Assembly: GCA_009789175.1 (NCBI GenBank)
Contig: CP046866.1
Coordinates: 2,914,001-2,978,000 of the forward strand
Reading direction: 5' to 3'
Source: Salinibaculum litoreum
GTDB lineage: Archaea > Halobacteriota > Halobacteria > Halobacteriales > Haloarculaceae
DNA length: 64,000 nucleotides
The position numbers and the translations under genes are program-made. The notes beneath the pieces were generated by a model. That model had not been told where the DNA came from, searched no databases, and saw only the letters and a program-made list of their open reading frames with translations. Shown here piece by piece: positions 57,168 to 60,089 of the stretch. Position 1 is the first letter of the stretch. Each line of letters begins with the position of its first letter.

Positions 57168-57254
57168 ACCGGCCGCTCGCGTGGCTGGCAGGTAGGGGTT
57201 GCGGTCCCGGGACAGCACAAACCACTACTGGCCCACGCGGCGTAGCCGAAGTCA

Positions 57255-58691
57255 GTGACACCCCCGGCTTTCGACCCGGCGCTTTCCTCCGTCGCGGCCG
57301 CCCGGACGACGCTCAGCGACCTCGACGGCGAGCGCGGCGAACTGGTCGTCGTCGGCTACCCTATCGAGGAACTGGCCGCCAATGCCGGGTACGAGGAAGC
57401 GCTTTTCTTGCTGTTCGAGGACCGCCTGCCGACGGACGAGGAACTCGATGCCTTCCGTGGAGACCTCGCTGCCCGCCGCGATATCGACGACAGCGTTCGC
57501 TCGCTGTGTCGAACCGCCGCCGATGGCGACGCTGCCCCGATGGACGCACTGGAGGCGGGACTGGCTGCCACCGGCCTGGCGCTGGAGACCGCCGACCCCG
57601 CCGAGACTGCCCGACACGTCGTCGCCGTCGCACCGACTATCGTCGCAACCTACTGGCGCTACCGGCAGGGCAAACAGCCGGCGCCCCCCCGCGAAGACCT
57701 CGGCCACGTCGCGAACTATCTCTGGATGCTGACCAGGGCGGAACCGGACGAAGACGCGGTCCGCGGGCTGGAGACGTTTTTCGTCACTGTCGCCGAACAC
57801 GGGCTGAACACCCCGACCTTCGCCGCGCGGACAGTCGTCTCGACGGAGTCTGACCTCGTCTCCGCGGCGACGGCCGCCGTGGGAACGCTCAAAGGTGACC
57901 GACACAGCGGCGACTTCGCTGCCATCCTGGACATTCTCCGTACTGTCGAGGAGGCCGACGACCCCGACGCGTGCCTTCGCGAGTATCTGACCGAGGGCGA
58001 GCGGTTCCCCGGCTTCGGCCATCCGGTCTATCGCACTCGGGACCCGCGGGCGGCGGTGCTTGCGACGGCGACCGAGCGCTACGTCGAGGCTGGCACCGAC
58101 CGCACGGCGACGGTCCGAACCGTCGAGGACGCCGCGACCGACCTGTTGCGGGCCGAGCGACCGGACTCGACGGCCCGTCCCACGCTTGAGCTGTATATTG
58201 CCCCCTTGCTCTCGGGCGTCGGCATCCCGCGGGACCTCTTTGCCGCGACCTTCGCCGTTGCCCGTATGGGTGGCATCGTGGCCCACGCGCTGGAACAGCT
58301 CGATTCGGGTCGTCTCGTCCGCCCGAGCGCCCGCTACGTCGGGTCCCAGGCCGATTCGTGGCTCCCGGTCGACGAACGCGCTGCTGTCGGTGACGAACTT
58401 TTCCGCCAGCCCGGGGACTCGCTCGAAGCGGTCTCGGAGACGCTCGCCACCCTCTCCGAGCCGAGTCGGCTGGAGATGCTGTTGGCGCTGTTCGACGCCG
58501 ACGCCCCGGTCGCGTACTCGACGCTCCGAGCGGCGACTTCCATCGAGGACAAGGGCCGGTTCAACTACCACCTCCGCCAGCTACAGGACTACTTCGTCGC
58601 CGACCGCGAGGACGGCTACGCACTGACCGACGCCGGCCGGCGCGTCGTCGAAACCGTCGTCACCGATGACCAGCTGCTGGACGTAGAGTGA
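57255..58691 (+). CDS. Citrate synthase-like protein fused to a C-terminal winged helix
   Basis: A 478-residue fusion. Residues 1-375 align with citrate synthase, closest to the next gene in order and many blocks (LDGERGEL, FEDRLPTDEELDAF, RTVVSTESDLVSAATAAVG). His182 of EHGLN and His256 are kept, but the oxaloacetate-binding Arg of GFGHRVY is Pro257, and the Asp position reads Glu312 in PTLELY. Residues 395-478 form an ArsR-like winged helix (LSEPSRLEMLLALFDAD, RFNYHLRQLQDYF, LTDAGRRVVETV). This could be a metabolite-binding transcription regulator rather than an enzyme. The start is a GTG at 57255. Confidence 0.85.
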   Translation: MTPPAFDPALSSVAAARTTLSDLDGERGELVVVGYPIEELAANAGYEEALFLLFEDRLPTDEELDAFRGDLAARRDIDDSVRSLCRTAADGDAAPMDALEAGLAATGLALETADPAETARHVVAVAPTIVATYWRYRQGKQPAPPREDLGHVANYLWMLTRAEPDEDAVRGLETFFVTVAEHGLNTPTFAARTVVSTESDLVSAATAAVGTLKGDRHSGDFAAILDILRTVEEADDPDACLREYLTEGERFPGFGHPVYRTRDPRAAVLATATERYVEAGTDRTATVRTVEDAATDLLRAERPDSTARPTLELYIAPLLSGVGIPRDLFAATFAVARMGGIVAHALEQLDSGRLVRPSARYVGSQADSWLPVDERAAVGDELFRQPGDSLEAVSETLATLSEPSRLEMLLALFDADAPVAYSTLRAATSIEDKGRFNYHLRQLQDYFVADREDGYALTDAGRRVVETVVTDDQLLDVE

Positions 58692-58891
58692 CAGACGACT
58701 GGGAGAAATGCTGTTCTCCACCGCGTGCTCGGGTCTGTCTCACCTGGCAGGCTCTTCTCGTCCTGGCGGGATTCTCCCGGTGAAAATACCAGCAGGAGGT
58801 TCTTTCCGGCAGTTCCCTGGCTCGCTCGCGCTGTCCCCGTACTCCGCGGCGATACCTGTCGTGAAATTTGGAGAAGCGAATCTCTCCGATA

Positions 58892-58899
58892 GCTTATGA
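58892..58899 (+). promoter_or_regulatory. TATA-like box before 58923
   Basis: GCTTATGA centred 27 bases before the ATG at 58923; the second paralogue probably has its own promoter. Confidence 0.5.
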
Positions 58900-58922
58900 T
58901 TCCGGTCGGCGTAGTCCGGTGT

Positions 58923-60053
58923 ATGAGTGGAACCGAACTCCACCGCGGACTGGACGGTATCACGGTCGCGGAGACGCGGCTGAGCGACATCGACGGCGAG
59001 GCCGGCACGCTGCACATCGGCGGTTTTCCCGTCGACGAACTGGCGACCAGCGCCACGTTCGAGGAAACGGTCTTCCTGCTGTTCGAGGACCGCCTGCCGT
59101 CTGCTGACGAACTCGATGCCTTCCGTGCGGACCTCGCCGCCCGCCGCGAGATAGGCGAAGACGTCCACGCAATTCTCCGGCAGGCCGCCAGCGAGGAGGT
59201 CCCAGCGATGGACGCACTCCGGATGGGTGTTGCCGCGGCCTCGCTCGATGCCGGGGACACCGAGCGTCCCCGGGAGGCCGCCCGCCGGGTCGTCGCCGTC
59301 TTCCCGACTATCGTCGCCGCCTACTGGCGCTACCGGCAAAACGAGGAGCCGGTCGCTCCCCGCGAGGATCTCCGTCACGCCGCGAACTATCTCTGGATGG
59401 TGTCTGGTACGGAGCCGACCGACGCCGCCGTCCGCGGCGTCGAGACCTACCTCAACACCGTCGTCGACCACGGGCTGAACGCCTCGACCTTTACCGCGCG
59501 GACGGTCGTCTCGACGGAGTCGGACCTCGTCTCCGCGGCGACGGCCGCGGTCGGCACGCTGAAAGGGCCGCTCCACGGTGGCGCGCCCGGGCCGGTGCTG
59601 GAGATGCTCGAAGCGGTCCACGAGTCGGGCGACCCCGAAGAGTTCGTCCGCGAACGTCTCGATGCGGGCGAGCGCCTGATGGGTTTTGGCCACCGCGTCT
59701 ACAGCGTTCGGGACCCGCGGGCGGCGGTGCTCGCGACGGCTGCCGAGCAGTTCTACGACGACGGGGACGACTTCTTCGAGACTGTCCGGCGCTTCGAGGA
59801 GGTTGCCGTCGACCTGCTTTCCGAGCACAAGCCCGACCACCGGTTGGACACCAACGTCGAGTTCTACACCGCCGCCTTGCTCTCGGGGGTTGGCATCCCC
59901 AAAGAGCTGTTCACGCCCACGTTCGCAATCGCCCGCAGCGCCGGCTGGATGGCCCACGCCTTGGAGCAGCGCTCGGACAACAGACTCGTGCGTCCCGTCT
60001 CGCGGTACGTCGGTGAGACCGACTGCTCGTGGACGCCGCTTTCCGAGCGGTAG
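58923..60053 (+). CDS. Citrate synthase family protein (second paralogue)
   Basis: A 376-residue enzyme-like citrate synthase. Active-site His183 (DHGLNAST), GPLHGGA, GFGHRVY with His257/Arg258 and NRLVRPVSRYVG are present. The catalytic Asp of the usual NVDFYS reads Glu313 in NVEFYT. It may make citrate or a methyl/alkyl-citrate analogue. It lacks the C-terminal winged helix of the preceding gene. A 231-base spacer with its own TATA-like box separates the two. Start ATG 58923; upstream in-frame ATG 58896 overlaps the box. Confidence 0.85.
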   Translation: MSGTELHRGLDGITVAETRLSDIDGEAGTLHIGGFPVDELATSATFEETVFLLFEDRLPSADELDAFRADLAARREIGEDVHAILRQAASEEVPAMDALRMGVAAASLDAGDTERPREAARRVVAVFPTIVAAYWRYRQNEEPVAPREDLRHAANYLWMVSGTEPTDAAVRGVETYLNTVVDHGLNASTFTARTVVSTESDLVSAATAAVGTLKGPLHGGAPGPVLEMLEAVHESGDPEEFVRERLDAGERLMGFGHRVYSVRDPRAAVLATAAEQFYDDGDDFFETVRRFEEVAVDLLSEHKPDHRLDTNVEFYTAALLSGVGIPKELFTPTFAIARSAGWMAHALEQRSDNRLVRPVSRYVGETDCSWTPLSER

Positions 60054-60089
60054 TCGGCCGACGAACAGTCCCCGCCGCGGCAAAACGGG

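Follow-up and report, generated by a model that had tools for sequence, protein, structure and literature searches.

We propose that a gene in a 64,000-nucleotide stretch of the Salinibaculum litoreum genome (contig CP046866.1, referred to as the window) probably encodes a one-component regulator, in which a citrate synthase dimer would sense a carboxylate, C-terminal winged helices would bind a palindrome and the neighbouring gene would be controlled. As judged from sequence and predicted structure, an enzyme of central metabolism seems to have been turned into a dedicated switch of its sister gene. The protein and its two domains are located as follows.

57255–58691, + strand: fused protein of 478 aa, citrate synthase domain plus winged helix, GTG start (ORF and 16 full-length relatives)
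57282–58328, + strand: citrate synthase domain, aa 10–358 (Pfam Citrate_synt, E=2.6e-91; matches of the full-length model include citrate synthases such as 1ixe)
58437–58658, + strand: winged helix, aa 395–468 (PF24038/DUF7347, Pfam E=1.6e-22; AF2 and Foldseek), with the conserved SIEDKGRFNYHLRQL around the recognition helix in the alignment

In the translated window the ORF is unbroken and without internal stop. The protein displays both the fold and the profile of a citrate synthase, with 306.8 bits against Pfam Citrate_synt and an E-value of 1.5e-73 against PDB entry 2c6x, and Citrate_synt and DUF7347 were also recovered when each half was scanned separately. A DNA-binding domain and a ligand-type domain are thus carried by one chain, as in one-component regulators. 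The score against the NCBIfam model for haloarchaeal CitZ (NF041301) was 298.7 bits, below the curated cut-off of 550. The fusion of a citrate synthase with a C-terminal winged helix, as described in an earlier reading made from the letters alone (the sequence-only reading), is borne out by Pfam, AF2 and Foldseek. A frameshift joining two genes, a concern raised in the same reading, was not found, as start codon and domain boundary are the same at 16 other loci. A frameshift, an assembly artefact or a decaying pseudogene is accordingly ruled out to within a negligible probability, since the same continuous ORF is present at 17 loci and dN is lower than dS in 11/11 pairs, indicating purifying selection. 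Long antisense frames lie opposite both citrate synthase genes of the window (57252–58571 and 58740–60083, − strand), as G+C-rich haloarchaeal DNA would produce by chance.

The C-terminal region, which had been read as a winged helix, matches PF24038 at 79.9 bits (gathering cut-off 27.6), and the score of HTH_20 fell under its own cut-off. Modelling of the full-length protein by AF2 gave a mean pLDDT of 65, and values under 50 for the winged helix, which is too weak to define the geometry of the domains; modelled alone, the C-terminal 107 aa adopt a winged helix with a core pLDDT above 90. The top PDB neighbours of this C-terminal model in Foldseek are winged helices of the ArsR, MarR and CggR kinds, including SqrR, YodB, SmtB and CzrA, with modest E-values (best 1.4e-3, none <1e-3) and a TM to target of 0.6–0.8 for small ArsR-type domains. 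A search of the winged-helix profile against PDB sequences returned zero matches. Alignment of the fused winged helices identified the recognition-helix segment DKGRFNYHLR as the best-conserved part of the domain.

Full-length fusions are present in 10 of the 392 genomes of the class, that of the window included; with six relatives and Halomontanus, 17 fused loci were available, about 14 of them distinct, as three have domains identical to others in the set. Beyond the window, such fusions occur in Natrinema gari, Halorientalis marina, Natrialba, Halovivax, Halogranum rubrum, YIM A00010 and Halomontanus rarus, and the full-length relatives show 45–60% identity. In all fused proteins the start codon is the GTG of the V[TS]P motif. 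At 17/17 fused loci, the fused gene is followed on its own strand by an unfused paralogue, which adjoins it in 16 and is 3.6 kb away in the remaining one (G071). In the window, this partner and the intervening regulatory DNA are as follows.

58702–58719, no strand: distal operator candidate GGAGAA-ATGCTG-TTCTCC, a perfect inverted repeat 10 bp past the stop codon of the fused gene (the genome has two exact matches, this one included)
58870–58887, no strand: proximal operator candidate GGAGAA-GCGAAT-CTCTCC (11/12), spanning −53 to −36 relative to the ATG of the partner (equivalent site at other fused loci)
58892–58897, + strand: TATA-like GCTTAT, at −31 to −26 relative to the ATG of the partner, of a putative leaderless promoter (sequence; spacing as in archaeal promoters, PMC4158304)
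58923–60053, + strand: partner, an unfused CitA-like citrate synthase (active-site positions all as in its family; above the PRK12350 cut-off)

The partner is about 56% identical to the fused protein and scored 337.2 bits against NCBIfam PRK12350 (cut-off 332) and 375.4 bits against NF041301 (cut-off 550); position 58896 is merely its mechanical ORF start. At the 11 fused loci with wide flanks, the fused gene and its paralogue constitute the sole conserved block, and a larger conserved operon was rejected as no third gene is common to them. Paralogues without a fusion are common, which indicates that dependence is one-way, of the fusion on the paralogue. The genome of the window carries three citrate synthases, namely the strongest match, which is located far away, the paralogue and the fusion.

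In a tree of 90 citrate synthase domains (IQ-TREE), the 17 fused proteins constitute a single clade (98/99) nested in the haloarchaeal CitA-like paralogues. This clade tends to evolve faster than the partners, with an end branch of 0.62 for the window protein versus 0.21 for its partner, and comparison with the G055 locus yielded dN values of 0.40 for the citrate synthase domain of the window, 0.21 for the partner and 0.16 for the winged helix. One paralogue lacking the winged helix (G399:C1:699568-700704) combines a fused-type N-terminus (SPSVFDPGLE) with the enzyme-type motifs PLHGG and GHRVY, and is perhaps a relic from before the fusion or a gene that has shed its former tail.

Citrate synthases are obligate dimers whose subunits share active sites, and the two genes are always found together; the fused protein might on these grounds be a regulatory subunit that forms a heterodimer with its partner, with the winged helix as a protein-protein module and the palindrome belonging to another factor. 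This explanation is nevertheless highly improbable, as the most conserved part of the winged helix is the recognition-helix segment and the palindromic site tracks the fused gene.

Active-site residues were numbered with E. coli GltA aligned as a ruler for 17 fused proteins and 50 paralogues. The catalytic H264 and H305 are retained in 17/17 fused proteins and position 362 is D or E, the residues of the window protein being H, H and E. R314, R387 and R407', the oxaloacetate-binding arginines of GltA, are likewise kept in 17/17, including the one in the DPR motif. The sequence-only reading had correctly placed proline at residue 257, after the active-site histidine (GFGHPVY), but its interpretation of this residue as the loss of an oxaloacetate contact was rejected. 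The corresponding R306 of E. coli does not itself bind oxaloacetate; the ligands are the arginines retained throughout. Since glycine occupies this position in the canonical CitZ encoded by the same genome (GWGHGVY), absence of R306 is uninformative on oxaloacetate. This position is P, I, S, V, A or R among the fused proteins, the arginine being gone in 16/17 and retained only in Halorientalis.

Other positions have departed from the family. A/L263 is replaced by R and N/P268 by L or F in all 17 fused proteins, while the paralogues have L263 in 49/50 and P268 in 50/50; the positions altered in the fused proteins are invariant in the 50 paralogues with one exception, L263R in G239. This exception, the partner at L057:3111-4238, carries PRHGG, a motif otherwise characteristic of the fused protein, and sits on a long branch. 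Scattered changes were also observed, namely H229 to R in 2/17 (Halogranum and G410), N232 to T in 4/17 and W391 to I in the window protein only.

The retained residues could be taken to mean that the protein is a bifunctional enzyme-regulator similar to PutA or BirA, making citrate or a related acid as well as binding DNA, and purifying selection on the genes would agree with this. We regard such bifunctionality as unlikely in view of the substitutions at 263 and 268 and the loss of R306 against fixed paralogues, the sporadic changes listed above and the faster evolution of the citrate synthase domain relative to the partner. The earlier suggestion of a pseudoenzyme stands as a possibility, yet it has to accommodate a full set of catalytic residues, and because these are retained some residual enzyme activity is possible. 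The residue pattern suggests that the carboxylate pocket was kept and that drift has affected the residues around it, probably those on the acyl-CoA side, as would fit the sensor proposed here.

The spacers between fused gene and partner have a common motif, GGRGAA-N6-TTCTCC, in which the arms are conserved and the spacer varies. When scored out of 12 within 320 bp upstream of the paralogue start, the palindrome reached 11–12 in 17/17 linked paralogue promoters versus 1/41 unlinked ones (the remainder ≤10), an association that appears strong and is formally non-significant once relatedness is counted, since there are only 2–4 independent contrasts and a sign test cannot reach 0.05. This shared palindrome at the neighbour's promoter, which the sequence-only reading did not include, strongly suggests that its proposal of a regulator acting on the neighbour is right. 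Shuffled upstream sequences reached 11 in 3/3,400 cases, similar to the unlinked promoters. Most fused loci carry two copies approximately 140–188 bp apart, the proximal copy starting 52–61 bp before the partner start at most loci, directly upstream of a TATA-like box.

The motif is nearly restricted to this locus. A pattern search of the 3.73-Mb genome of the window returned two exact palindromes, at 58702–58719 and at C1:2440711, the latter of which reads like coding sequence. An exact match was found in the spacer of the pair in 8/9 other fused genomes, with few elsewhere, and the spacer copy in G031 has a single departure; of six unlinked control genomes, three contained no exact match and three contained one elsewhere. 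In G071, with 3.6 kb between the two genes, the palindrome sits at the partner promoter. The single unlinked promoter with a high score belongs to Haloprofundus (G092; L045:8740-8927), a natural regulator-less case that keeps both sites and a partner that nests among the linked partners in the tree, and no fused gene was found there, probably reflecting its recent loss.

Autoregulation through an operator copy upstream of the fused gene was rejected, as the best score there was merely 9/12. The palindrome is also not a generic DUF7347 site, as 29 other DUF7347 loci scored like shuffled DNA. Separately, a perfect GGAGAA-ATATTA-TTCTCC was observed 23 bp past an unrelated DUF7347+DUF7351 gene and before a cupin gene (L113:354-1518; G205:C1:1735465), and this regulator may likewise use the operator.

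In the mechanism that we infer, the regulator would derive from a duplicated CitA-like citrate synthase whose citrate synthase part would dimerise in the usual two-fold manner. Given retention of the carboxylate pocket, the most likely ligand would be citrate, oxaloacetate or a closely related compound handled by the partner. The two winged helices of the dimer would bind the inverted repeat that occurs once or twice between the fused and partner genes, and such a two-fold arrangement would fit a palindrome whose half-sites are centred 12 bp from each other. From its position abutting the upstream edge of the BRE/TATA region, the proximal copy would allow activation of the partner gene. The module would be self-contained, consisting of a sensor-regulator, its operators and one regulated enzyme gene.

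In archaea, regulators usually activate from sites upstream of BRE/TATA and repress from sites downstream of it (PMC4158304). The location of the proximal site at the upstream edge of the BRE therefore inclines us somewhat towards activation, with repression through exclusion of TFB as the lesser possibility; a site upstream of the BRE does not in itself prove activation. The same regulator acting on the same target as a repressor, with a site that overlaps the upstream BRE edge, blocks TFB and is vacated upon ligand binding, is a tentative but credible alternative: the proximal site ends inside the putative BRE (58886–58891) and the two sites could support looping, while the typically activating role of sites so placed speaks against it.

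The combination of a DNA-binding domain with a citrate synthase is not unique to haloarchaea. The pAt replicon of Agrobacterium fabrum encodes a 425-aa protein consisting of MerR/HTH_17 and citrate synthase domains, divergent from a citrate/methylcitrate synthase gene, and Ensifer and Chelatococcus have a similar HTH-citrate synthase gene with a CitA-like neighbour. In Thioclava, Comamonas, Pseudoroseomonas, Deinococcus and Azospirillum, the HTH-citrate synthase genes are divergent from transporter, dehydrogenase, CoA transferase or other genes; divergent placement is typical of regulators. The spacers of the paired bacterial genes contain inverted repeats of the TTGAT/ATCAA type, and ATTGAC/ATTGAT inverted repeats in the divergent spacers of L078, L080, L085 and L093 are candidate operators of the bacterial proteins. 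In the tree, 13 bacterial proteins constitute a clade of their own (100/100), far from the fused haloarchaeal clade.

We give an even chance to the broader view that citrate synthase has become a DNA-binding metabolite sensor at least twice, with a C-terminal DUF7347 in haloarchaea and an N-terminal MerR-like HTH in bacteria, that both kept the oxaloacetate/citrate pocket, loosened its surroundings (probably the acyl-CoA side) and can control a CitA-like gene, and that they represent an uncharacterised class of TCA-metabolite sensors annotated as enzymes. The haloarchaeal regulator proposed here would provide archaea with a candidate direct sensor of a TCA intermediate, with a defined operator and target. 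The database annotation 'citrate/2-methylcitrate synthase' conceals among enzymes both the fusion and the bacterial analogue that evolved independently.

Enzyme-derived one-component regulators are already known, and use of the citrate synthase fold in this way is new as far as the literature was searched. The search found no description of a regulator with this fold and no published characterisation of the bacterial proteins; a survey of archaeal fusions mentions citrate synthase only for ATP-citrate lyase (PMC11237513). The earlier statement that no regulator of such architecture had been described thus agrees with the literature searched, although databases do hold the independent bacterial HTH-citrate synthase proteins. 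In Streptomyces coelicolor, the two citrate synthase genes SCO5831 and SCO5832 share one common intergenic region (PMC12323332).

Among known systems, the bacterial proteins (annotated 'citrate synthase family protein', e.g. ATU_RS25370) resemble the fusion in uniting DNA-binding and citrate synthase domains, in the retained active-site core and in overlapping loosened positions. The fusion does not belong to their family, as they carry an N-terminal MerR/HTH_17 instead of a C-terminal DUF7347 and form a separate clade. The CitA-type (type II, PRK12350-like) citrate synthase/2-methylcitrate synthase of Bacillus subtilis has in common with the fusion its fold, catalytic His/His/acid and oxaloacetate arginines, and with the partner the HGGAP and NVEFY motifs; the fusion differs from CitA in its winged helix, in xRHxG for PLHGG and in variability at residues that are invariant in the enzyme family. 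GfcR (PyrE-like; gene pyrE1) is likewise a haloarchaeal enzyme-like regulator, an activator of sugar degradation and central metabolism, with another fold and a broader regulon (PMC11519228). Finally, archaeal regulators of the TrmB family are similarly one-component proteins that use palindromic sites and activate or repress depending on where these lie relative to BRE/TATA (PMC4158304), but their sugar-binding domain and operator are unrelated to those of the fusion.
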